Of a DNA stretch of 64,000 nt, positions 15,921-41,583 are shown one piece after another. Made by a program: the position numbers and the translations under genes. Origin of the DNA: Methylobacterium sp. AMS5 (GTDB lineage Bacteria; Pseudomonadota; Alphaproteobacteria; Rhizobiales; Beijerinckiaceae); the NCBI RefSeq assembly GCF_001542815.1, contig NZ_CP006992.1:4035501-4099500 (forward strand), written 5' to 3'. The notes beneath the pieces are model-generated. The model had not been told where the DNA came from. It worked only from the letters and a program-made list of their open reading frames with translations, and searched no databases. How positions within the stretch are numbered: the stretch's first letter is position 1; each line of letters opens with the position of its first letter.

Positions 15921-15960
15921 AAAGCATCGTCCTGGATCCGATCTCCAGGACGATGCTTTA
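15921..15960. repeat. R1 hairpin only
   Basis: AAAGCATCGTCCTGGA pairs perfectly with TCCAGGACGATGCTTT around a 7-nt loop. It is the 5' hairpin of the R1 repeat seen at 34016 and 41480. Its last three bases are the stop codon (TAA, leftward) of the amide hydrolase gene. It separates the rightward IS5 relic from that leftward gene and may work as a terminator. Confidence 0.75.
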
Positions 15961-25955: not shown

Positions 25956-27148
25956 CGTGCGGACCGGCTTTCCCGCACGCATCCATCGGCCGTGTTGCGG
26001 ACCCGCAGGCCGTGCGCCGTTGGAACCGGCCGCGATCTCCCGAAATGGCAAACCGGGCCGCGCCTTGCTCGGACTTCCGCGGCGATTGCGGCCAGCCTCG
26101 GCCCCCCTCCCGACGCGCCGCCCTCGAACGCCGGCGGCCCGACACCCGGACGGCAACGCGGGAAGAGGTGCGGCTGCGCGCCTCCCACGAGCGCCTTGCA
26201 GGCCTTGGGGCGGACTTCAGTGTGTCGCACGATCCCGATCGGCAGCCAGACCGATATCCGAGCCCTTGACCGGCCCCCTGCCGGCCTGGGCAAGGGCGCG
26301 CTCCAACATCTGTCCATAAATCGGACGGCCGCCGAGCCATTGGGCCACGAGGCAGGCGGTCAGGCAGGCCGTCAGCATGGGCAGGACGAGCGCGTAGGCG
26401 GTCGTGAGTTCAAGCACCAAGACCACGCCCACGGCCGGTGCGTGCACCGTTGCGCTGAAGAGCGCGGCCATCGCCACGATGCCGAAGGAAACGGGCGTCA
26501 CCCCGAGGCCGGACAAGGCTTCAGGGAACACCATCTGCGCGAGCAGGCCGAAGGCCAGACCGATGCAGGTCGCCAGGGACAGGATCGGCGCGAAAATGCC
26601 ACCCGGCGTGCCGATGGAATAACAGACAGCCGACGTGAAGAGCCGGGCGGCCGCCAGCATCAGGAGCACGCCCGCACTCGGGGTCAGAACGGCGATCTGT
26701 GAAATCACCTGCTCCCCGCCCGTCGCGGTGCGCGGGGCGAGGATCAGCAGAACGCCCACGAGCAGTCCGACCAGGGCAGGCCAGACATACGGGGCACGCT
26801 TCTGCCATGCGGCGGCGATGTCCAGCATCGCCAGGATGCATCGGTTGAAGAGCACGCCCACGGCACCCAGGATGATGCCCAGCACGGCGAAGGCCGGCAA
26901 CGAAGCCAGCGCAGCCTCCCCGGCGGACAGCGGCAGGTCCGGTCGTTCGCCCGAAATGATCTGGGTCACCGCCGTTCCGGTGATCGCGGCCGCGAACACC
27001 CCCATGTAGTTCCGGAACGTGTAGGGGAACTGCTTGCGCGTTTCCTCGATGACGAACAGCACGGCCGACATCGGGGCATTGAAGGCGCAGGCGAGGCCCG
27101 CCCCCGCGCCGGCCGCCAGCAGAGCCCGCCGATCGACCTCCCGCATCC

Positions 27149-28442
27149 GGACACCTCGAAATACCCCTTCCGCGCGGGGCGGTGTCGTGATTCCCTGACC
27201 TTATCGACGTCGGGGAGGCTCGGATGGGTCAGCCAGGGTTCTTCGATTTGGATGAGCGCTATCAGCGTCTGTCGGAGTACGGGGATCCGCTGGTGAAGCT
27301 CGCGGCGCTGATCGACTTTGAGGCGTTCCGGCCTAAGCTGGCCTCCGCACTGAAGCGGTCCGATGGATCGAAGGGTGGCCGCCCGCCCTACGACCCAGTG
27401 CTGATGTTCAAAATCCTGATCCTCCAGACGCTCTACACGCTGTCGGACGACGCCACCGAGTTCCAGATCCGGGACCGGCTCTCGTTCATGCGCTTCCTCG
27501 GGCTGGGGTTCGAGGATGCGGTGCCGGATGCCAAGACCGTTTGGCTGTTCCGCGAACAGCTCACGCGGGCCGCCGCCATCGACGATCTGTTTGCCGCCTT
27601 CGACGCCTGGCTGAAGGGCAAGGGGTATCTGGCGATGTCGGGGCAGATCATCGACGCTTCGATCATCGCGGCTCCGCGTCAGCGCAACACCGATGCGGAG
27701 AAGGCGGCTCTCAGGGAGGGCAAGATCCCAGACGCATGGGCGGCCAAACCGAAGAAGCTGTCGCAGAAAGACAGGGACGCCCGCTGGACGTTGAAGCGGG
27801 CCAAGGCGCGGCCCGCCAAGGCGGACGGTGCGAAGGCCAAGGTTGAGATCGCCATCCCGGTGTTCGGGTACAAGACGCATGTCTCGATCGACCGGAAGCA
27901 CGGGTTTGTCCGCCGCTTCACCGTCACCAGCGCGGTCGCCCACGACGGGGCGCAACTGGCCAACGTCCTCGATCCGGCCAACACGGCGAGCGAGGTCTGG
28001 GCCGATACCGCCTATCGCTCGAAGACCAACGAAGCTCATCTGGCAAAGCATGGCCGGCGCTCGAAGATCCACTTCCGGCGGCAGCCCGGCCTCGATCTGA
28101 CGCCGGCGCAGCGCAAGGCCAACCGCGCCCGCTCCAAGGTCCGCTCGGCCGTCGAGACGGTGTTCGCCGGGCAGAAGCACCGCTTCGGCCTGTTCGTGCG
28201 CACCATCGGCCTGGCCCGAGCCCGGACCAAGATCGGGCTCGCCAACCTCGCCTACAACCTCAAGCGCTTCCTCTGGATCGACGGCCGGCCAGTGGCGGCC
28301 TGAGGCACCCTCGGGATGGGCCCCTGAGCCCGCTCACGACCATCGTCAGCCTGCCAGAACGCCGGTCCGATCACGTCAGAGCCGCGAGCGGCATCGAATC
28401 GACGGCCAAAGCCGCGCAACTGCATGGTTCTTCGAGGTGTCC
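27149..28442 (+). mobile_element. IS5-family insertion element inside the CLC gene
   Basis: The 1294-bp element ends in inverted repeats: GGACACCTCGAAATACCC at the left and, as reverse complement at the right, GGACACCTCGAAGAACCA. It is flanked by the direct repeat ATCC (27145-27148 and 28443-28446), the 4-bp duplication typical of the IS5 group. It carries one rightward transposase gene, opposite in direction to the disrupted CLC gene. The element is complete and appears mobile. Confidence 0.9.
27224..28303 (+). CDS. IS5-family transposase
   Basis: The 359-residue DDE transposase opens with MGQPGFFDLDERYQRLSEYG, followed by the DUF772-like block GGRPPYDPVLMFKILILQTL. The catalytic Asp residues lie in IIDASIIAAPRQ and in VWADTAYRSK, and the C-terminal Glu in VRSAVETVFAGQKHRFG, followed by NLAYNLKRFLW. 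All three are present and the frame is uninterrupted. It is the only gene of the element. Confidence 0.92.
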   Translation: MGQPGFFDLDERYQRLSEYGDPLVKLAALIDFEAFRPKLASALKRSDGSKGGRPPYDPVLMFKILILQTLYTLSDDATEFQIRDRLSFMRFLGLGFEDAVPDAKTVWLFREQLTRAAAIDDLFAAFDAWLKGKGYLAMSGQIIDASIIAAPRQRNTDAEKAALREGKIPDAWAAKPKKLSQKDRDARWTLKRAKARPAKADGAKAKVEIAIPVFGYKTHVSIDRKHGFVRRFTVTSAVAHDGAQLANVLDPANTASEVWADTAYRSKTNEAHLAKHGRRSKIHFRRQPGLDLTPAQRKANRARSKVRSAVETVFAGQKHRFGLFVRTIGLARARTKIGLANLAYNLKRFLWIDGRPVAA

Positions 28443-29010
28443 ATCCGGAACATCTGGCAGGCAGCGAGCGCCGCCGAACCGCCCATGTGAATGGTCGGTC
28501 CCTCGCGGCCAAGCACCAGGCCCGAGCCGATCGCCGCGATGCCGGCGATGAACTTCACCGGCAGCACGCGCTCCCAGCGCACATGCCGGATGCCGGCGAT
28601 GGCCCCCTCGATCTCCGGAACCCCGCTCCCGCTCGCTTCCGGGGCGAAGCGCCGGGTGATGAACACGGCAAAGACCGTGGCCGCCATGGTGATGGCGGCG
28701 CTCGCCGCGACCAACCGCCAACCGGCGGTATGGCCGGCCAGCCATGCCGGCCAATCGACGATCGTGTCGATGGCGAGGTGGAAGAGGCCGCCGAACACGC
28801 CCGTGAGGGCACCGGTGATCAGGGCCACGGCGACGAAGCGTGCCTGTTGCCAGGGCGTGGCGGGTTGATCTGCCGGCTTCATCCTCGCCCATTCCTCTCG
28901 CTGATCGCCGGCAAACCCTGGACTTCACGCGGTCCGTCCCCGGAACGGATGTCTCGGCGGGACTCACCAAAGTCCCACGGAGGCGGTTTCGTGGGCGCCC
29001 GGACCACCGG

Positions 29011-32000
29011 TCAGGCGGGCTGACCCTGCTTCGCCTTCCCCTGTCTCGCGCGCTCGCGCAGGGTCTGGACCGTGACGTAGAGCATCGGCACGAGGAAGAT
29101 GCCGATCGAACTGGCCGCGATCATCCCGCCGAAGACCGCGGTGCCGACGTCGCGCCGGCTGATCTGGGCCGCACCGGTCGCGATCACGAGAGGGACGAGG
29201 CCGAGGATGAAGGCGATGGAGGTCATCATCACGGCGCGGAACCGCTGCTCGGCGCCGCGGATCGCGGCCTCCCGGATCGGCACGCCCGTCTCGCGCTGAT
29301 CCTTCGCGAACTCGACGATCAGGATGCCGTTCTTGGCGGCAAGCGCGATCAGCACCACGAGGCCGATCTCACTGTAGAGATCGAGCGAAAGGCCGGCGAG
29401 CTTGACGGCAAGGTAGGAGCCGAAGGCGCCGACCACGACGGACAGGAGAACCGGAATGGGGATCGTCCAGCTCTCGTAGAGGGCAACGAGGAACAGGTAG
29501 GCGAACAGGAAGGCGAGGCCGAGGACGATCCAGGTCTGGCCGGAGGCCTGCTGCTCCTGATAGGCGGTCCCGGTCCACTCGTAGCTGTAGCCTTCCGGCA
29601 GGGTCCGGTCGGAGATCTGCTCCATCGCGGCCATCGCGGCGCCGGAGGAGATGCCGGGCGCCGGGCTGCCGTTCACGCTCACGGCGCGGACGTTGTTGTA
29701 GCGGGTGAGCACCTGCGGTCCGAGCACGATGCGCTCGCTCGCGACCGAACGCACCGGCACCATCTGGCCCGAGGCGCCGCGGACATAGATGTTCCAGATG
29801 TTGCGAATGTCGCCCCGGTTGTCCGCCTCGCCCTCCACGTTCACCTGCCAAGTGCGGCCGTAGAGGTTGAAATTGTTGACGTAGACCCCGCCGAGCGTGG
29901 CTTGGAGCGAACTGAAGACGTCGCTCATCGCCAGCCCGAGCACCTGTGCCTTGGTGCGGTCGATGTCGAGGAAGATCGAGGGATTCGACGCCGTGAAGGT
30001 GGAGAAGACGCGGGCGAGTTGCGGGTCGCGGTTCGCCGCCGCAGCGAGGCCCCGCACGACCGCATCGATCGCAGCCGGGTCCTGCCCCTCTCGCGCCTCG
30101 AGCACGTATTCGAAGCCGCCGCTCGTCGAGAGCCCGACGATGGGCGGAAGATTGAAGGGCCGCACCGTTGCCTGCCCGATCGTCGCGGCCGCCGCGTAAG
30201 CGCGCCCGATCAGGGCCTGGGCGGATTCCGCCGCGCTCCGGCGATCGGCGAAGGGTTTGAGCTGCGCCACCAAGAACGCGGAATTCGGCTCGGCCGCCCC
30301 GTCCAGAAGCGAGTAGCCGACGATCGCAAGCACCTGATTGACGCCGGGCATGTCCTTCAGGAGCCTCTCGACCTCCGCCGCGACCGCACTCGTGCGGGCC
30401 ACCGAGGCGCCGTCGGGCAGTTGGACCGAGACGAAGAAGGCGCCCTGATCCTCCTCCGGGAGGAAACCGGCCGGCGTGACCCGCGAGAGGCCGAAGATGC
30501 CACCCGCGAACAGGAGAACCAGCACGAGCGAGAGAGCGGACACGCGGACGAGGCGGCGGACGCCCGCCGCATAGCGGTCCCGCACCCAGTCGATTCCGCC
30601 GAGCACCCGGCCCATGATGCCCCGCCGCGCGCGCGTGGGACGCAGGAACACCCCGCAGAGCGCGGGCGAAAGGGTCAGCGCGTTGATCGCCGAGATCAGC
30701 ATCGCGGCGCTGATCGTGACGGCGAATTGCCGAAACAGCGTTCCCGACACGCCGGGGATGAAGGCGATCGGAACGAAGACGGACAGCAGGACGAGCGTGA
30801 TGGCGATGATGGGGGCCGTGATCTGCGTCATGGCGAGCTTCGTCGCCTCGGCCGGCGACAGCTCCGGATGCTCCTCCATCACCCGCTCGACATTCTCGAC
30901 GACCACGATGGCGTCGTCGACCACGATGCCGATGGCGAGCACCATCGCCAGGAGCGACACGGTGTTCGCCGAGTAGCCGAGCACGTAGAGCACCGCGAAG
31001 GTGCCGATGAGGCTCACCGGCACGGCGATGGCGGGGATCACCGTCGCCCGCAGGTTCCCGAGGAACAGGAACACGACGAGGACGACGAGGACGAAGGCCT
31101 CGGCCAGCGTCCGCAGCACCTCGGAGATGGTATCCTTCACGAAGGTCGTCGAATCGTGCACGACCACGTATCGCAGTCCTGCCGGGAAGCGCGCCGAAAG
31201 CTTTTCCAGGGTTGCCTTCACGGCGGTTGCGGTCCGCACCGCGTTGGCGCCGGGCACGAGATAGATGGCGACGGGAACGCCGGGCCGACCGTCGAGCCGG
31301 GATTCGCTGTCGAAGCTCTGCGCGCTGAGCTCCACCCTGGCGACGTCGCGGATTCGAACCACGGAGCCGTCGGGGTTCGTCCGCAGGACGATCGCGCCGA
31401 ACTGTGCAGGTGTCGACAAGCGCCCCTGCGTCTGCACGTTCATCTGGATCTGCTGCTCGCTTGTGATCGGCGGCGCGCCGATGCGACCGACCGGCGCCTG
31501 AACGCTTTGCGCCCGGATGGCATCCACCACGTCCGACGGCGCGAGATTCAGGCTCGTCAGGCGATCCGTGTCGAACCAGATGCGCATCGAGTAGTTCATC
31601 CGCGCGAACAGGTTGGCCTGGCCCACTCCGGCCGTGCACGAAATCTCGTCGAGTATGTTGATGATGGCGTAGTTCGTGATGAAGAGCGGGTCCTGCGCGC
31701 CCGTCTCGCTGTAGAGGACGGCAAACAGCAGGATCGCGGAAGACTTCTTCTGCACCTTGAGCCCCTGCAGCTGCACCTCGGACGGGAGCTGCGACAAGGC
31801 CGACTGGACGCGGTTGTTGACGCTGACCGTGTTGATATCCGGGTCGGAGCCGAGGTCGAAACTCACCGCCAGGCTGTAGCTGCCGTCATTGGCACTCGTG
31901 GACTTCATGTAGATCATGCGGTCGACGCCGATGACCTGCGCCTCGAGCGGCTGGGCGACGCTCGCCTCGACGACCTCGGCCGAGGCCCCCGGATACATCC

Positions 32001-32142
32001 CCGACACACTCACCTGCGGCGGCACGATGTCTGGAAACTGCGCGACCGGGATCCGGAGCAGCGCCAGCCCCCCCGCGATCGTGATGATCAGCGCGATGAC
32101 GATCGCGAGCCGGGGGCGGTCCACGAAGATTGCTGAGATCAT
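29011..32142 (-). CDS. RND multidrug efflux permease (AcrB/HAE1 type)
   Basis: The 1043-residue inner-membrane pump has the standard RND layout: TM1 near 10-30 ([20 protein letters not shown]), a first periplasmic loop, TM2-6 with the relay Asp pair in [22 protein letters not shown]7, a second loop and TM8-12 with [20 protein letters not shown]. The length equals AcrB. ATG at 32142 begins the TM1 block; the longer frame to 32250 is Pro/Arg-rich and runs through the tandem repeat, so it is rejected. The membrane-fusion gene is 131 bp upstream on the same strand. No outer-membrane channel gene adjoins. Confidence 0.93.
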
Positions 32143-32207
32143 GACACGCCTCGGGCTCGGTCGCCTGGGACAAACGAAGTGCGATCCGGGACGGGGGGCC
32201 GCGGAGC

Positions 32208-32255
32208 GGGGCAAGGGACGGGGCCAGGGACGGGGCCAGGGACGGGGCAAGGAAG
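32208..32255. repeat. Tandem repeat, four 12-bp units
   Basis: The unit GGGGC(A/C)AGGGAC occurs four times head to tail, the last one diverged. It lies in the 131-bp spacer between the efflux adaptor and pump genes, about 66 bp before the pump start. On the mRNA it forms a cytosine-rich tract. Confidence 0.85.
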
Positions 32256-32273
32256 GCGGCGTCCCATGCTGCG

Positions 32274-33602
32274 CTAGCGCCGGCGGCTCGGGCTGCCGCT
32301 CGCGTTCGGGCCGGCGCCGCTGGCTTCTCCGGTCGGAGCTTGTCCGGTCGGCGGCGAAACGGACGCAGCCGGGGCTGTGCGGCCAGCCGGCCCCGCGCCG
32401 TCCTCGTTCACGGCCGAATTCCGCATCATCCTCTGCAGAAGGGCGTCGGCGGGTTTGGGCAAGACCGTCTCGCCCGCGCGGACCCGCTGCAAGCCTTCGG
32501 CGATGACCTGCTCTCCGACCTTGAGGCCGCTCGTCACAGCCGCGAGCGTCGTGCTCGACTGGCCAAGCTGGATCCGACGCTCCTCGGCCTTATTCCCTTG
32601 CCCGATCACGTAGACGTAGCTGCCCCGCTGGTCGGCCAGGACGGCGGCGCGGGGAATCGCGACCACCTCGACCGGCTCGACGCCCTCGAGGAACACGGTG
32701 ACGAACTCGCCATCCGTGAGTTCACGAAGGGTGACCGAGTCGCGGGTTTGACCGAAGATCGGGGGATTCGGCAGCACGCCGCGAAGCAGGATCGTGTCCG
32801 TATTCGTCGCGATGGTGTTGTTGACGAAATTGAGCTTCCCGGTGTGGTCGTAGAAACGGCCGTCCGGCAGTTGCGCCCGGATCAGGACAGCGCCGAATCC
32901 GCCCGTCGGCCCATAGCGCGCTCTCAGATTGATCGCTTCGCGGACCGGCACCGGAAACGTCACGAACATCGGGTCCTGGCTGATGATCGTCGTCAGCACC
33001 CCGGAGCTCGGCCCGACGACGTTGCCGATCGTCAGGGACGTGCGCCCGATCTGGCCCGCAATCGGCGCTCGGATCTCCGTGTAGCCGAGATTGATTTGCG
33101 CCGTGTCGAGCTGGGCTTGTGCGGCTTGGAGCTGCGCCTCCAAGGCAAGCTCGTTCGCGAGGGCCGCGTCGTAGGTCGATTGCTGCCCGGCCGGCCCGCC
33201 GAGCAGGGTTCTGGCGCGCTGCGTCGTGAGACGCGCGTTTCCCAATTGCGCCTCAACCTGCGCAATCTGCGCCTTCTGAGCGGCCACGGCCGCCTGGAAC
33301 GGGCCCTGCTCGAGACGGTAGAGGAGCGTTCCTTCCTCGACGTCCGTGCCCTCGACGAAGAGCCGCTTCTCGATGAACGCCGTCACTCGGGCAACGATGT
33401 CGACACGCTGCTTCGCCTCGATGCGGCCGATGAACTGCTCCGTCTGCGTGATCGGCTCCTTGCGCGCGGCGATGATGCCGACGACCGGTGGGCCCGTCGG
33501 CTCGGCCTGCGCAAACGCCGTCGAAATGGCGGGCGGGCACGAGGCGGAGAGCGTCGCAGCGGCCACCCAGACCCGGAGCTTGAACATGCCGGTCATCGTC
33601 AT
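32274..33602 (-). CDS. RND efflux periplasmic adaptor (membrane-fusion protein)
   Basis: The 442-residue protein joins the pump at 29011 to an outer-membrane channel. It has a signal peptide (cleavage near TAFAQA, residue 33), a lipoyl-like half with [20 protein letters not shown], an alpha-helical hairpin of about residues 100-165 rich in Ala/Gln, and beta-barrel parts with [20 protein letters not shown]. The C-terminal 50 residues are Pro/Ala/Gly-rich. The start at 33602 has GGAGG 6 nt upstream. It probably heads an operon with the pump; the substrate range is unknown. Confidence 0.92.
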
Positions 33603-33904
33603 GTTCGCCTCCAGGGGATCGTCCACCGACGCCCGACGAGCGGCCGAAAGCCCTGACCGCCGCGACCCGTCGTCGGCGACGTGCCGGGGGGGCGGGGCGG
33701 GGCCGTTGGCGCGGCACGCTCGGAGCCTTGCACGGCCCGATGCCCGTCGCGCGCATCCTCAATGGCGGAAGGCCCCAGGCTCGAACCCTGTGCCTCTTCG
33801 CAGACACGGACACCGAATGTGCCGCCCCGAACGCGTGATCCGGGACGACACGAGGGATGCGCGCGCTGCATCATCTGTCCAGACATCAGCGAATGTGTTT
33901 TCAA

Positions 33905-34015
33905 GCGATGCTCGAGCCTTATCCGGCCCGATTGCATCCGGCCGGCGTCTCTAGGTCATTGTCTCAACGCGCTTTCTTTCGCAGAACCGGCGTCCACTTC
34001 GTCGGAAAGCGCTCT
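33905..34015 (-). repeat. Dispersed repeat R2, inverted copy 3
   Basis: Read leftward it gives AGAGCGCTTTCCGACGAAGT, a CGAAAGAAAGCGCG core, GAGACGCCGGCCGGATGCAA and a final GGCTCGAGC, matching 20971-21080. It lies immediately beside R1 (34016-34120), within the gap 33603-34117 that otherwise has no gene. Confidence 0.7.
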
Positions 34016-34120
34016 CAAGCATCGTCCTGGATACCTGATCCAGGACGATGCTTGAGGCTCCTGTTTTTCGCATCATCTTTTTTCCGAAAGCCGGCAACCA
34101 CCTTTCGGGCCGATGCTCTA
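34016..34120 (+). repeat. Dispersed repeat R1, full copy
   Basis: It starts with a perfect hairpin (CAAGCATCGTCCTGGA, 7-nt loop, complement, 34016-34054), then AGGCTCCTGTTTTTCGCATC, a T-tract, CGAAAGCCGGCAACCACC and TTTCGGGCCGATGCTCTA. The full copy at 41480-41583 is nearly identical. Its final CTA supplies the stop codon of the leftward cysteine-rich peptide gene. Confidence 0.85.
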
Positions 34121-34351
34121 GAACGACGGCTTATTGCCGATGCATTTGCATCGCTTCGATTTCAGAATCTGGCAGCGGCCGCTGCAGCAATCCCTCGCAC
34201 TGCGTCCGACCCATCCATTGCCGCGACACTCGATATTCATGTCGCGCGTCGTCATGATCTGTCCCGGCCGGCTCAGCGCCATCGTGGATGTATAGATACT
34301 TACTCCCATCATCATCGCTGGAATAGCGACGAGCATTGCAACGCTTCGCAT
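34118..34351 (-). CDS. Small secreted cysteine-rich peptide, unknown
   Basis: The 77-residue precursor starts with a hydrophobic signal-like segment (MRSVAMLVAIPAMMMGVSIY) ending near residue 27. The basic mature part has six cysteines at 42, 55, 56, 60, 68 and 70, a C-x12-CC-x3-C-x7-C-x-C pattern around DCCSGRC. GGAGG lies 8 nt before the ATG at 34351. Local composition (34130-34480) is clearly AT-richer than the surroundings, suggesting a foreign origin. The adjacent CC-x3-C recalls disulfide-rich knottin-type peptides, but one of the usual spacings is missing, so function is not assigned. The stop codon belongs to R1, so the original C-terminus may have been longer. Confidence 0.6.
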   Translation of the reverse strand: MRSVAMLVAIPAMMMGVSIYTSTMALSRPGQIMTTRDMNIECRGNGWVGRSARDCCSGRCQILKSKRCKCIGNKPSF

Positions 34352-34529
34352 GGCGCATCCTCCATCAAGATTGATCGATTGGCGGCCGTTGATTTGGATT
34401 GGCTACCAATTTTTATACAATACGATATTTATGAACTATAAAACACTATCCATTGACATGAATGACTTCGTACCGCGCCGGATGTTCACGGAATCCTGAA
34501 CGCCGGTCGAAGGAGGAAAGCGGACCGGG

Positions 34530-34622
34530 TCAGGGTTTGAACCGGGCCTCTTCGTCAGGATGGGCGACGACGGCGACGTGGCTATCCATGTCGGTGCCGG
34601 GGAACGAATCGAATTGAGGCAT
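34530..34622 (-). CDS. Possible 30-residue peptide gene
   Basis: The frame MPQFDSFPGTDMDSHVAVVA continues for ten more residues to a TGA. It has GGAGG 6 nt before the ATG (GCGGAGGTTGACC) and lies 61 bp downstream of the dehydrogenase stop on the same strand. The strong ribosome site argues for translation. No family is recognised; it could also be the start of a truncated gene. Confidence 0.4.
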   Translation of the reverse strand: MPQFDSFPGTDMDSHVAVVAHPDEEARFKP

Positions 34623-34683
34623 GGTCAACCTCCGCAAGACCCGGAGTATAGCCGAGACGGGCAGGCCAGCACCTTGATGGTGA

Positions 34684-35451
34684 TCAATCCAATTCCTGCA
34701 CGCCCCCACCCGAGATCGTCAGGATCTGACCGCTGATCCAAGAGGCCGCGGGCGAGCAAAGGAACTGGGCTGCTCGGGCAATGTCCTCGGGCTCGCCGAG
34801 ACGCCCCAGCGGCGTGTGCCGCAGCATGAGCGTTTCGGCTTCAGGCGTCAGGACGCTGGCCAAGGCATCGGTGCGGATCGCTCCCGGTGCGATGGCGTTC
34901 ACCCGAATACCCTGCGGGCCGAGGTCGAACGCCATGTTCCGGGTCAGGTGGTTCACCGCCGCTTTCGACGAGCCGTAGGAGGTCATCCGGACGTTCCTGT
35001 TCTCACCGGCCATGGACGAGATGTTGAGGATCGCGCCACGTCCCTCGGCTGCCATCGGCTGTGCAGACAGTTGCGACAGGCGGAAGGTCGAGAAGAGATT
35101 CAGCTCGAAAGCCCAGCGGAAATCCTCCACGGGCATGTCGAAGGGTTTCGGTCCTCCACCGCCGGCATTGTTGACCAGGATTGTAAGCGCACCGAAATGG
35201 CCGATCGCAGCCTGCACGGCGGCCTTCAGGTCCTCCTCCTTCGTGACGTTGCAGCCGATCCCGACGGCCCTCCCGCCCGCCTTCACGATGCCAGCAGCGA
35301 TGGTCTGGGCCGCATCAATGGCGATGTCGCTGACGACGACGGCCGCGCCGGCAGCGGAGAAGGTCTCGCAGATCGCCCGGCCAATGCCGGCGCCGCCTCC
35401 CGTCACCAGAGCGACCTCACCCTCCAGGCCGAAACATCTGAGGTTGTCCAT
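34684..35451 (-). CDS. Short-chain dehydrogenase/reductase
   Basis: The 255-residue NAD(P)-dependent oxidoreductase has the cofactor motif TGGGAGIG at 17-24, NNAGG near 94-98, catalytic Ser145/146 in ILNISSM, Tyr159 and Lys163 in SYGSSK, and the IRVNAIAPGAIRTD tail of classical SDRs. It resembles 7-alpha-hydroxysteroid dehydrogenase-like members, but the substrate is not deducible. The ATG at 35451 is used; an upstream in-frame ATG lacks a ribosome site. It lies between a gene-poor AT-rich region and the cytochrome oxidase operon. Confidence 0.88.
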   Translation of the reverse strand: MDNLRCFGLEGEVALVTGGGAGIGRAICETFSAAGAAVVVSDIAIDAAQTIAAGIVKAGGRAVGIGCNVTKEEDLKAAVQAAIGHFGALTILVNNAGGGGPKPFDMPVEDFRWAFELNLFSTFRLSQLSAQPMAAEGRGAILNISSMAGENRNVRMTSYGSSKAAVNHLTRNMAFDLGPQGIRVNAIAPGAIRTDALASVLTPEAETLMLRHTPLGRLGEPEDIARAAQFLCSPAASWISGQILTISGGGVQELD

Positions 35452-35707
35452 GTATCGCCTCTCGCGGCGGGTCATTCTTTGCGAGTCTCACGCCCGGCAC
35501 GATCAATACGTGCCGGCACCCCGCACTGTCCGGACGGAAGAATCGAGAGACAGAATTGCAGCGTGTCGATGGGCCGATGGGCGCGATGCTCACGTCATCC
35601 TGCCCACGACCGTGGTTGCCGCCGCACAGCTCCGGCGTGCCGGTCAGCCCCCGTGCCCTTCATCGCAGAGGACCGTTCCCGACGGGGCATGTCCGACGAA
35701 GCGCCGA

Positions 35708-35887
35708 TCAGGTCGATTTCAGCAGCCATCGAAGCGGGAGGGCGATGAGCGTCAGGCTGACGACACTCATCGTCCAGAGCAGAACGAACCAGCCGATCCG
35801 ACGGAACTTGCCGGTTATCGTCGCCCTGCGAACCCGTGCGGCGTCGGGCACGAAGGCAGGCTCCGCCGTCGGCTGATGACGACCCAT
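35708..35887 (-). CDS. DUF2474 small membrane protein of the bd-type oxidase
   Basis: The 59-residue protein has one hydrophobic helix (IGWFVLLWTMSVVSLTLIAL then PLRWLLK) after a basic stretch. Its start overlaps the cydB stop by one base (TGATG), so it is translationally coupled. Small single-helix proteins of this family accompany CioAB/CydAB oxidases, as CydX does in E. coli; a structural or assembly role is inferred. It ends the operon. Confidence 0.82.
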   Translation of the reverse strand: MGRHQPTAEPAFVPDAARVRRATITGKFRRIGWFVLLWTMSVVSLTLIALPLRWLLKST

Positions 35888-36897
35888 CAATGATACCCGG
35901 ATTCCGGTGTGACCTTGCCGCGGAACAGCCAGTAGACGTAGGCCGTGTAGCCGAGCACCATCGGGACCAGCACCACCGCACCGGCGAGGAGAAAGGCCTG
36001 GCTGCTCGGATGCGTGGCCGCAGCCCAGATCGAGATGTCCGGGGGCACGATCATCGGCCAAAGGCTGATGGCGAGCCCGATGTAAGAGAGCAGGAAGAAG
36101 CCGAGCGCGCAGAGGAAGGGCATGATCTCCTCCCGCCGCTCCAGTGAGCGCTGGAAGCGGAGCGCCAGCAGCCCGACGAGCACGGGCACCGGCGCACCGA
36201 CGAGGATGCCGGGGAAGGAGAGCCAGCGCTCGCGGAAGGGAGCGCTGAGGACGAGCATCGTGAGCGAGATGACGGCGATCAGGAGCAAGGTCGCCAGGCC
36301 CAGAGGGCGGGCGAGGCGGTAAGCGCGGATCTGCAACGCGCCCCCCGTCTTCCAGATGAGCCAGCATGCGCCCAGGAGCGCGTAGCCCACCACCAGCGCC
36401 ACGCCGGTCAACAGAGAGAAGGGGGTGAGCCAGTCCCACCAGCCGCCGGCATAGGCCCGCCCCTCGACGCGGATGCCCTGGACGAGGGCACCGAGCGCGA
36501 TGCCCTGGCAGAAGGCCGCCACGTAGCTGCCCCAGGAGAAGGCCCGGTCCCACCAGAGCTGCCCCCGAACTGTCACCATGCGGAAGCGCATCTCGAAGGC
36601 GACGCCGCGGAAGACGAGGGCGAGCAGCATCAAGATCAGCGGTATGTAGAGCGCCGGCAGGATCGTCACGTAGGCCAGCGGGAAGACCGCGAAGAGCCCG
36701 CCGCCGCCGAGGATCAGCCAGGTCTCGTTGCCGTCCCACACGGGGGCGACGGAGTTCACCATCACGTCCCGATCGGCCTTGGCGGACATGGCCGGGAACA
36801 GGATGCCGATACCGAGATCGAACCCGTCCATCGCGACATAGAGGAACACGGCGGTCGCGATCAGGAAGGCCCAGATCAGCGTGAGGTCGAGAGACAT
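35887..36897 (-). CDS. cydB: Cytochrome bd/cyanide-insensitive quinol oxidase subunit II
   Basis: The 336-residue membrane subunit opens with LDLTLIWAFLIATAVFLYVA then MDGFDLGIGIL, the CydB/CioB signature, and has PVWDGNETWLILGGGG, plus the typical final HPSSQAFLLAGAVVL segment. About eight or nine membrane helices are seen. ATG at 36897 has AAGGAA 9 nt upstream and fits the family start; a GTG at 36915 overlapping the cydA stop is an alternative. It pairs with subunit I upstream for quinol oxidation by O2. Confidence 0.93.
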   Translation of the reverse strand: MSLDLTLIWAFLIATAVFLYVAMDGFDLGIGILFPAMSAKADRDVMVNSVAPVWDGNETWLILGGGGLFAVFPLAYVTILPALYIPLILMLLALVFRGVAFEMRFRMVTVRGQLWWDRAFSWGSYVAAFCQGIALGALVQGIRVEGRAYAGGWWDWLTPFSLLTGVALVVGYALLGACWLIWKTGGALQIRAYRLARPLGLATLLLIAVISLTMLVLSAPFRERWLSFPGILVGAPVPVLVGLLALRFQRSLERREEIMPFLCALGFFLLSYIGLAISLWPMIVPPDISIWAAATHPSSQAFLLAGAVVLVPMVLGYTAYVYWLFRGKVTPESGYH

Positions 36898-36911
36898 CGA
36901 AACGGCTTCCT

Positions 36912-38336
36912 TCACTCAGCGGGCTGGGCATTCGGACCGGCGGCGAGCGCCGGGGCCGGGGTAATGCCGGCGGTGCGCACCGGCTGACCGGTGGGCAGAC
37001 CCGTCTCGTGCGGTCGCGGTGGCTGATTGAAGAGATGCAGAAGGAACCAGATGCCGGCCCCGAACACGACGAAGTAGACCACGGCGAACGCGGCCAGCGA
37101 GGTCGCGACCGCGGGGGCGGCGATGGGTGAGACGCTGTCGGCGGTGCGCAGCAGCCCGTACACCGTGAAGGGCTGACGCCCGGATTCCGTCACCACCCAG
37201 CCCGCCGTGACGGCAACGAGGCCGGACGGGCCCATCGCGACCGCGCAGCGGTGCAGCCATCGCGACGTGTAGAGCCGTTCTTTCCAGCGCAGATAGAGGG
37301 AGGCCACGCCCAAGGCGATCATCAGGAAGCCGAGCCCGACCATGACCCGGAAGGCCCAGAACACCAGGGGCAGGTTGGTCGGCCAGGTGTCGCGGGGCAG
37401 GGCCTTCAGCCCGCGCACCTCGGCGTTCAGGTCGTGGGCGAGATACAGGCTCGCGAGCCCCGGTATGCCGACCGCCCAACGCGTCGTCTCGGCCTGCGCG
37501 TCCGGCCAGCCGAACAGGATCGAGGGCGCGCGCCGCTCGCTGTCGAAATGGCCTTCCATCGCCGCGACCTTGGCGGGTTGGTAGTGGTAGGTGTTGGCCC
37601 CATGCAGATCGCCCAGGACGAGTTGGACGGGGGCGACGATGGCCGCCATCCACATCGCCATCGAGAACATCAGGCGGGCGCGCGGGTTCGAGCGGTCGCG
37701 CAGGAGATGCCACGCCCCCACCGCGCCCACGATCATCGCGGTGGTCAGGTAGGCGGCGGTGACGGTGTGGGCGAAACGGTAGGGGAAGGACGGGTTGAAG
37801 ACCGCCGCCCACCAGTCCTGAGGGGCGAAATGGCCGTTGGCGTCGAGCACGTAGCCCGCCGGCGTCTGCATCCAGGAATTGGCCGACAGGATCCAGAAGG
37901 CCGAGGTCAGCGTGCCCACCGCGACGAGGCAGGTGGCCAGGAAATGAAGGCGCGGGCCCACGCGCTCCAGACCGAACAACATGACTCCGAGAAAGCCCGC
38001 CTCCAAGAAGAAGGCCGTCAGAACCTCGTAGCCCAGAAGAGGACCGAGAATCGGCGCCGTCTTGTCGGAGAAGACCGACCAGTTGGTGCCGAACTGGTAG
38101 CTCATGACGAGACCGGAGACGACGCCCATGGCGAACGCGATGGCGAAGATCTTGAGCCAATACCGGTAGGCATCGAGATAGATGCCGCGCCCGGTGGCGA
38201 GCCAGAAGGCTTCGAGCACGGCAAGGAAGCTCGCCAGCCCGATGGTGAAAGCCGGAAACAGGAAATGCCAAACGACCGTAAAGGCGAATTGGGTCCGAGC
38301 GAGATCGAGTGCGCTGGGGAGGTAATGGTCCGGCAT
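36912..38336 (-). CDS. cydA: Cytochrome bd/cyanide-insensitive quinol oxidase subunit I
   Basis: The 474-residue haem-binding subunit starts near the family block DLARTQFAFTVVWHFLFPAF (axial His24), followed by SYQFGTNWSVFSDKTAPILG, a GHFDSERRAPSILFGWPDAQ segment and the FWAFRVMVGLGFLMIALGV helix. The hydrophilic Q-loop is short, as in the cyanide-insensitive CioA subgroup. ATG at 38336 starts the conserved block. The order is cydA-cydB-DUF2474. No CydDC genes or redox regulators lie near. Confidence 0.93.
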   Translation of the reverse strand: MPDHYLPSALDLARTQFAFTVVWHFLFPAFTIGLASFLAVLEAFWLATGRGIYLDAYRYWLKIFAIAFAMGVVSGLVMSYQFGTNWSVFSDKTAPILGPLLGYEVLTAFFLEAGFLGVMLFGLERVGPRLHFLATCLVAVGTLTSAFWILSANSWMQTPAGYVLDANGHFAPQDWWAAVFNPSFPYRFAHTVTAAYLTTAMIVGAVGAWHLLRDRSNPRARLMFSMAMWMAAIVAPVQLVLGDLHGANTYHYQPAKVAAMEGHFDSERRAPSILFGWPDAQAETTRWAVGIPGLASLYLAHDLNAEVRGLKALPRDTWPTNLPLVFWAFRVMVGLGFLMIALGVASLYLRWKERLYTSRWLHRCAVAMGPSGLVAVTAGWVVTESGRQPFTVYGLLRTADSVSPIAAPAVATSLAAFAVVYFVVFGAGIWFLLHLFNQPPRPHETGLPTGQPVRTAGITPAPALAAGPNAQPAE

Positions 38337-38891
38337 CTCTGAAACTCGATCGGCGGAAGTGAAGTACGAGTCACATTTGAAACGACGCACCCACGGCGGC
38401 TCACGCTACGGCGTCAAGTGCAACCCCGTCGGGATCGATTTTATGTTTTCGTCTGCTTGCGCGCCGTGATCATGAAACACGGTCCCATCAGCGCACATCC
38501 TCGATACCTCCTTAATAGGAGGCACCCGCAAAGTACGCCCCAACAGGGAAGCTCATCACGCTGAAGGCCGCATTGATCGAGATCAGGCGGGAGCGTCGCG
38601 GCCTCGATGATGGGTCCGCGCTGCGAGCCCCTCCCACAAGGGCCGCTCGAACGACGGCCAATCGGGCCTCCACGTCACGAGGCGTCGTGCTACCGCGCTT
38701 TTCAAAAGTACGCACTGGGGTGGAAAATCGTCAGTCCGCATCGGAAGAATCGGCTTACGCAAGGGGAGGCAGGTTCGTTGCCGCCATCGTGGACAATCGG
38801 AAGGCTGTCCTGGCGCTTCGGCAAGGTCGCTTTCGAGACGGATGGTCTGCGGTGCCCGACGTCAGAACCAGCCCATCGCCTGCTGAGGCCT
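38337..38891. other. Gene-free stretch upstream of the oxidase operon
   Basis: The 555 bp show no recognisable gene. Several overlapping frames (for example on the plus strand from 38573) lack ribosome sites and homologous motifs. The part nearest 38337 must hold the leftward promoter of cydA; I found no FNR-like site or other operator. The stretch beyond 38500 may be decayed coding DNA. Confidence 0.4.
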
Positions 38892-41479: not shown

Positions 41480-41583
41480 AAAGCATCGTCCTGGATACCT
41501 GATCCCGGACGATGCTTGAGGCTCTTGTTTTTGCATCATCCTTTTTCCGAAAGCCGGCAACCACCTTTCGGGACGATGCTCTA
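41480..41583 (+). repeat. Dispersed repeat R1, second full copy
   Basis: AAAGCATCGTCCTGGATACC opens a slightly imperfect hairpin, followed by the same T-rich stretch, AAGCCGGCAACCACCTTTCG and GATGCTCTA. It lies between the convergent three-repeat gene and the epoxide-hydrolase-like gene. Confidence 0.85.

Follow-up and report, generated by a model that had tools for sequence, protein, structure and literature searches.

The 77-codon reading frame at 34118-34351 on the minus strand of the window (the whole 64,000-nucleotide stretch of the Methylobacterium sp. AMS5 chromosome analyzed here) is a real gene, far beyond chance, because full-length relatives were found in other genomes and substitutions among eight copies were concentrated on the third codon positions of the mature part: 110, 54, and 467 on positions 1, 2, and 3, respectively. 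The gene is restricted to one lineage of related methylotrophs, and the predicted mature part of its product, which carries six cysteines, is under strong purifying selection. The interpretation that we favor, tentatively, is an exported mini-protein with an ICK-like hairpin. The following features (window coordinates) are referred to below.

34118..34351, minus strand: six-cysteine peptide gene of 77 codons, stop codon 34118-34120 (ORF, homologues, dN/dS, codon-position bias)
34352..34375, minus strand: conserved leader with the GGAGG ribosome site, abutting the ATG on its 5' side (alignment)
34277..34351, minus strand: predicted signal peptide, residues 1-25 (hydrophobic run, -3/-1 residues, dN/dS 0.41)
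34121..34276, minus strand: mature peptide as predicted, 52 residues (26-77) with six cysteines (sequence features, dN/dS)
34229..34273, minus strand: N-terminal arm (residues 27-41), under the strongest constraint among the stretches compared (dN/dS 0.007)
34142..34228, minus strand: cysteine domain, residues 42-70, with an invariant G49 where ICK peptides have cysteine 2 (alignment, pattern counts)
34014..34056, no strand assigned: R1, a perfect 19-base inverted repeat and dispersed genome repeat, 3' of the gene, with a terminator-like shape on the plus strand

The preliminary description had proposed this frame and was silent on its strand; the frame was borne out, with an ATG start codon at 34351 of the minus strand in the ORF list. 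The cysteine pattern given there, C-x12-CC-x3-C-x7-C-x-C, agreed exactly with the ORF translation (C42, C55, C56, C60, C68, and C70 of the 77-residue protein). The strong ribosome site was likewise found: GGAGG, 7 bases 5' of the ATG, was kept in 10 of 10 aligned copies, and the leader (ATCAATC...GGAGGATGCGCC) was conserved among relatives. When up to three mismatches were allowed in four genomes, this leader pattern gave a single match each in the window's own genome (G000), G018, and G009, and none in G087. Other reading frames over the gene (those of the plus strand and a 75-codon minus frame) were set aside because the substitutions sat on the third positions of the 77-codon frame. No sigma-70-like promoter site was detected in 33900-34700, where two terminator-like sites were both on the plus strand, and no RNA family matched in 33600-34700.

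The dN/dS values, calculated from 28 pairs of eight copies (one with a stop codon in the signal part), were 0.046 for the mature part, 0.41 for the signal part, and 0.007 for residues 27-41; given the non-independence of the pairs, they are to be read as descriptive. The protein P0006, the degenerate second copy of G106, and the second copy of G063 were left out of this calculation. Constraint was uneven over the family: the mature part was 82% identical in G087, and 57-59% identical in a divergent second-copy type (the G063 second copy and P0007).

Relatives of the peptide were found in 8 of the 111 genus genomes, including its own (E <= 1e-4), and all eight belonged to one tight Methylorubrum-type clade; the main copies of the seven others were 66-92% identical to the window's protein. 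When cydB was used as a marker, nine genus genomes carried a cydB >=93% identical to that of the window (the next best, 85%), and the eight peptide-bearing genomes were all among these nine. Members of the clade included Methylobacterium sp. Leaf123 (G099), sp. R2-1 (G106), Methylorubrum aminovorans (G063), sp. B4 (G103), M. thiocyanatum (G009), and M. rhodesianum (G087). Run as a query against 5.8 billion proteins, an 11-row alignment retrieved six, every one of the peptide family; two carried source names, both "hypothetical protein" (P0005 and P0007, the latter from Methylorubrum populi), and one, P0006, was apparently frameshifted, judged from its protein sequence alone. All six cysteines and 29 of the 77 columns were invariant in the 11-row alignment. 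Relatives with conserved cysteines thus exist in other genus genomes, and a peptide lacking homologues, which had been considered at the outset, is not what was found.

More distant searches added no credible member. In a search of 61 genomes, matches at E <= 10 were obtained in 55; only those in the window's own genome, G018, and G009 had E values below 1e-38, all others exceeding 0.001. In an order-level search (397 genomes, an even sample of a larger group), ten other genomes gave matches at E 0.001-0.01, with no further credible member. Twelve weak loci (L004, L006, and L044-L053) were considered as distant relatives and taken as chance matches because CC-X2-5-C lay within 300 bases of the center in two, neither of which fitted the family.

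An intact copy of the gene was located downstream of cydAB in seven of the nine clade genomes, and all seven of these syntenic copies were intact. In six of them (the window's genome, G018, G099, G106, G063, and G009), the order was cydA, cydB, a DUF2474 gene, the peptide gene, an RND adaptor, and an RND pump, with the peptide gene 0.5-1.5 kb after cydB; in the window, approximately 490 bases separate it from the adaptor ORF. In G087, the peptide gene was located 0.35 kb after cydAB, and the DUF2474 gene, adaptor, and pump were undetected in the 8 kb downstream that were examined.

The two remaining clade genomes differed from these. G084, sister to G009 in the cydB tree (support 0.96), carried cydAB and a DUF2474 match followed, approximately 90 bases on, by a fragment of the RND pump (L084, 7717-8661). 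Since the pump fragment adjoins the DUF2474 match and the best peptide match of this genome was weak (E 0.035) and at another place, a deletion apparently removed the peptide gene and the adaptor; G084 is thus a possible natural null strain for comparison. G103 had no copy at the syntenic site; its sole copy was located beyond the pump and a ClC gene and carried TAA at codon 7. In the peptide tree, this copy formed a long branch apart from the group that contains the window's peptide (support 0.80), and it may therefore be an independent copy and not a relocated one. Additional copies were found in G063 (49% identical, near a contig end) and in G106 (degenerate). Loss in G084 and the presence of only a stop-bearing copy in G103 indicate that the peptide gene is dispensable in at least some strains. 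A broken equivalent in close relatives, named earlier as evidence against the gene, was thus seen only among off-site or unplaced copies (the stop in G103, the degenerate second copy in G106, and the frameshifted-looking P0006), and not among the seven syntenic ones.

The neighboring genes were assigned by a Pfam scan of ten frames in 26217-38390, which gave cydA, cydB, DUF2474, SDR, the RND adaptor, the RND pump, and two ClC channel parts; two of the ten frames had no Pfam family, namely a 59-residue ORF and one overlapping a transposase-like ORF. The small DUF2474 gene (35708-35887, minus strand) is located directly after cydB, with a one-base overlap with its end, and was detected in eight of the nine clade genomes (all except G087); we take it to encode a putative small bd-oxidase subunit. 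A complete SDR gene (34684-35475, minus strand) lies between the cyd genes and the peptide gene. Since the corresponding place in relatives contained no more than short pieces of its C- or N-terminal end (L085, L040, and L041), or nothing of it, this gene represents either an insertion in the window's genome or decay in the relatives, as suggested by the comparison of loci. Between the SDR gene and the peptide gene is the 59-codon ORF (34530-34709, minus strand), for which no Pfam match was obtained and tblastn matches were found in 5 of 11 related loci, two of them short. Farther away, the ClC chloride-channel gene was split within 26217-28882 into an N-terminal part (28376-28882) and a C-terminal part (26217-27146), and a 359-codon, transposase-like ORF on the plus strand (27224-28303), presumably resembling an IS5-type transposase, lies between them. 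In five related loci, ClC was undivided, as a single ORF at the same place.

The peptide gene was described earlier as lying in an AT-rich patch, and this was confirmed: the twelve 250-base windows of lowest GC in the 64 kb (step 10) all start at 34201-34311, with 46.8-49.2% GC against a mean of 68.4%, such that no part of the window is richer in AT than the gene and the region upstream of it. On the other hand, the accompanying suggestion of acquisition by transfer received no support as regards a recent event. The eight main copies all had a GC content of 0.55-0.58 and a third-position GC of 0.58-0.75, compared with third-position values of 0.91 in the cydB and 0.85 in the adaptor gene of the window; because low GC is common to all eight, the bias is old and gives no sign of recent arrival. 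The chromosomal place was the same in seven of the nine clade genomes, and no mobile-element relatives were found: the plasmid collection gave one partial Rhodococcus match (E 0.6), the phage collection none, and in viral contigs eight stretches matched the pattern and none was confirmed, in searches that may omit records very near the window's genome.

The patch was also said to be bordered by R1, which holds for the downstream side of the gene (34014-34056), and not for the other side. The palindrome, AAGCATCGTCCTGGAT-N5-ATCCAGGACGATGCTT, occurred at 43 places in the window's own genome at <=3 mismatches, with a variable 5-base loop; three of these are in the window (34014-34056, 15921-15959, and 41480-41518). 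A shorter form was found without mismatches in only 2 of 97 loci, both from the window's own genome, and hence the palindrome does not travel with the gene. R1 is no part of the gene family and is uninformative about the peptide.

The signal-like N-terminus noted earlier was evident in 11 of 11 aligned members as a hydrophobic run near the N-terminus, A at -1, T or A at -3, and a cysteine-free first part; one of these 11 (from G087) had no positive charge in the first four residues. Sec export and cleavage to approximately 52 residues are therefore predicted from these features. The predicted 52-residue product of the window had a net charge of +8 and a computed pI of 9.9 (members, +4 to +9). 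Since the number of cysteines in this predicted exported product is even, they likely form three disulfides. Searches of 11 members against Pfam and NCBIfam profiles gave best E values of 0.12 and 0.13, each such family in one or two members only; PHROGs and PADLOC, each searched with three proteins, gave no matches; and among the matches listed in the open literature, there was no description of this peptide. The proposal of an undescribed bacterial disulfide-rich peptide is supported by the absence of a family in these four libraries and by the cysteines conserved in relatives, with export and disulfides as predictions.

Cysteine spacing was compared with that of known peptides using 14 sequences: nine genome copies (including the stop-bearing G103 copy and the second copy of G063) and five database proteins, among which are near-duplicates such as P0004 with G009 and P0005 with G087; P0006 and the degenerate second copy of G106 were left out. 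None of the 14 fitted the ICK consensus CX3-7CX3-8CX0-7CX1-4CX4-13C, as given in an excerpt of PMC4942781, or the scorpion ICK consensus CX6CX4DCCX2-4[KR]CX3GX4-6C[KR], as printed in the available part of PMC3694633. When the latter (from the same part of PMC3694633) was relaxed at cysteine 2, at the position preceding CC, and in the length of the hairpin, all 14 fitted; this relaxed pattern was composed after the family had been seen, and 14 of 14 is thus a description and no independent test. The place of ICK cysteine 2 was occupied by glycine, and an additional cysteine was located two residues past the last ICK position, in 14 of 14. The likeness to the scorpion ICK peptides, as far as these are described in that part of PMC3694633, therefore lies in a small, signal-bearing protein with CC followed by X2-[KR]-C and a later C-[KR], and in a distance from the first cysteine to CC equal to that of the consensus. 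The peptide differs from the ICK described there in its invariant glycine for cysteine 2, an extra cysteine near the end, a shorter hairpin loop, and an added, near-invariant 15-residue N-terminal arm. Two bacterial ICK peptides, KrICK and HoHP-ICKD, are proposed in the same part of PMC3694633, and are likened to the present peptide by description only. The related hairpin fold shares a hairpin with few disulfides, and differs in having two mandatory disulfides against the six cysteines of the peptide. Judged from spacing, an ICK-like pairing of C42-C56, C55-C68, and C60-C70 is likely.

Neither the bacterial cis-defensin expression CX(2,18)CX3CX(2,12)CX(4,17)CXC (excerpt of PMC11561630) nor the C6 defensin spacing C-X5-12-C-X3-C-X9-10-C-X4-5-C-X-C (excerpt of PMC6989792) was found in any of the 14 sequences. 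The cis-defensins and CS-alpha-beta classes I-V, AdDLP, and actifensin, as described in the available parts of PMC11561630, PMC5116183, and PMC6989792, respectively, resemble the peptide in being small and cysteine-rich, with CX3C, CXC, and GXC. A CS-alpha-beta defensin was rejected on spacing, since seven residues separate CX3C and CXC in the peptide versus the 14-16 required by the C6 spacing in the excerpt of PMC6989792. A gamma-core-like stretch, G-X-C-X7-C, was present in 14 of 14; unlike in defensins, its cysteine is the second of CX3C. The laterosporulin-type class IId bacteriocins are also bacterial peptides of 5.6-6.0 kDa with conserved cysteines (excerpts of PMC3293901 and PMC6989792); these are made by Brevibacillus, unlike the peptide, and were compared by description only, from the excerpt of PMC3293901. 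Although the peptide would act in the manner of small cystine-stabilized peptides, it was kept out of the ICK and defensin families, since none of the spacings that define these families was found when tested. Structural predictions, considered with regard to the knotted ICK fold with I-IV, II-V, and III-VI disulfides, were of low confidence: the mean pLDDT values of two AF2 models were 58.9 and 65.6, and both placed a helix at residues 35-44 and short strands at 60-62 and 67-70. Fold searches with these low-confidence models gave no credible match, and the best match in a sequence search of the PDB (E 0.45) covered residues 5-52, mostly outside the cysteine domain, with no ICK chain among the matches listed.

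Regarding function, our preferred reading, to which we give somewhat less than an even chance, is an exported three-disulfide ICK-like hairpin mini-protein that binds a conserved envelope partner through its near-invariant arm and cationic hairpin. The 77-residue precursor would be exported by Sec and cleaved to a product of approximately 52 residues, three disulfides would lock a cut-down ICK-like hairpin, and the arm and hairpin would then grip a constant partner in the cell envelope or at the cell surface. A binding role is suggested because the signal part drifts whereas the mature sequence, and above all its cysteine-free arm, changes little. Slow change of a mature part with a drifting signal is the expectation for a ligand of a constant target, not for an arms-race weapon, and a ligand is also preferred because none of the family-assigned neighbors looks like a gene for immunity or for the dedicated export of a peptide. 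A more specific version, which we regard as unlikely, is that a cystine-knot-type scaffold, with cysteine 2 replaced by glycine and a new end cysteine, was turned into a constant extracellular ligand whose 15-residue arm docks one conserved receptor, either of the bacterium or of its plant host.

The main rival to the ligand reading, doubtful in our view, is that the peptide is secreted as an antimicrobial, of a defensin-like or class II bacteriocin-like kind, and would harm competitors through the cationic hairpin. A small product of this charge and pI with six cysteines and the gamma-core-like stretch would suit such a role, defensin-like bacteriocins are known (excerpt of PMC6989792), and the next downstream gene in six clade genomes is the adaptor, with an HlyD-family Pfam match in the window, whose partner is an RND pump. 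However, in that excerpt of PMC6989792, the actifensin gene afnA has ABC transporter and protease genes beside it, whereas the Pfam scan of the ten neighboring frames (26217-38390) gave no ABC transporter or protease. Among the family-assigned neighbors, none was a processing protease, an immunity gene, or an exporter dedicated to peptides, with the family-less 59-residue ORF at 34530-34709 as a remaining candidate. Furthermore, a Sec-type signal fits periplasmic rather than outside delivery, the dN/dS of the mature part is unlike that of a diversifying weapon, and the defensin spacings were absent from all 14 sequences. A eukaryotic target, such as a plant host in whose apoplast the peptide would serve as a signal or inhibitor during leaf colonization, is quite unlikely. 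These bacteria are known leaf dwellers and disulfide-rich mini-proteins commonly act as signals or inhibitors in eukaryotes, but the search of 5.8 billion proteins gave members of the peptide family only.

A role of the product as a small cysteine protein of the periplasm with metal or redox activity, or as an accessory to the neighboring cytochrome bd oxidase or RND pump, is very unlikely in our view. The vicinal cysteines, and the constant position of the gene in six clade genomes, with cydAB-DUF2474 on one side and the RND adaptor on the other, point in this direction; however, G087 has kept the gene although RND genes went undetected over the 8 kb downstream, and G103 has cydAB and RND with no intact peptide copy, and thus neither cydAB nor RND is needed for the gene to persist. 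Moreover, of the 99 genus genomes in which cydB was matched, 90 are not members of the clade and gave no match to the peptide, and the distance of approximately 490 bases to the adaptor ORF also argues against an accessory role. A decaying relic with no present function would account for the TAA at codon 7 in G103, the degenerate second copy in G106, the apparent frameshift in P0006, and the apparent deletion in G084, but is extremely unlikely given seven intact syntenic copies of seven and strong purifying selection on the mature part.

The gene can be studied in a methylotroph amenable to laboratory work. Bacterial ICK-like peptides have barely been described, the open literature yielding two proposed examples (in the available part of PMC3694633). 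With its natural variants, constrained mature part, and stable chromosomal place, the present family provides a clean test case for mini-proteins in a Gram-negative cell.
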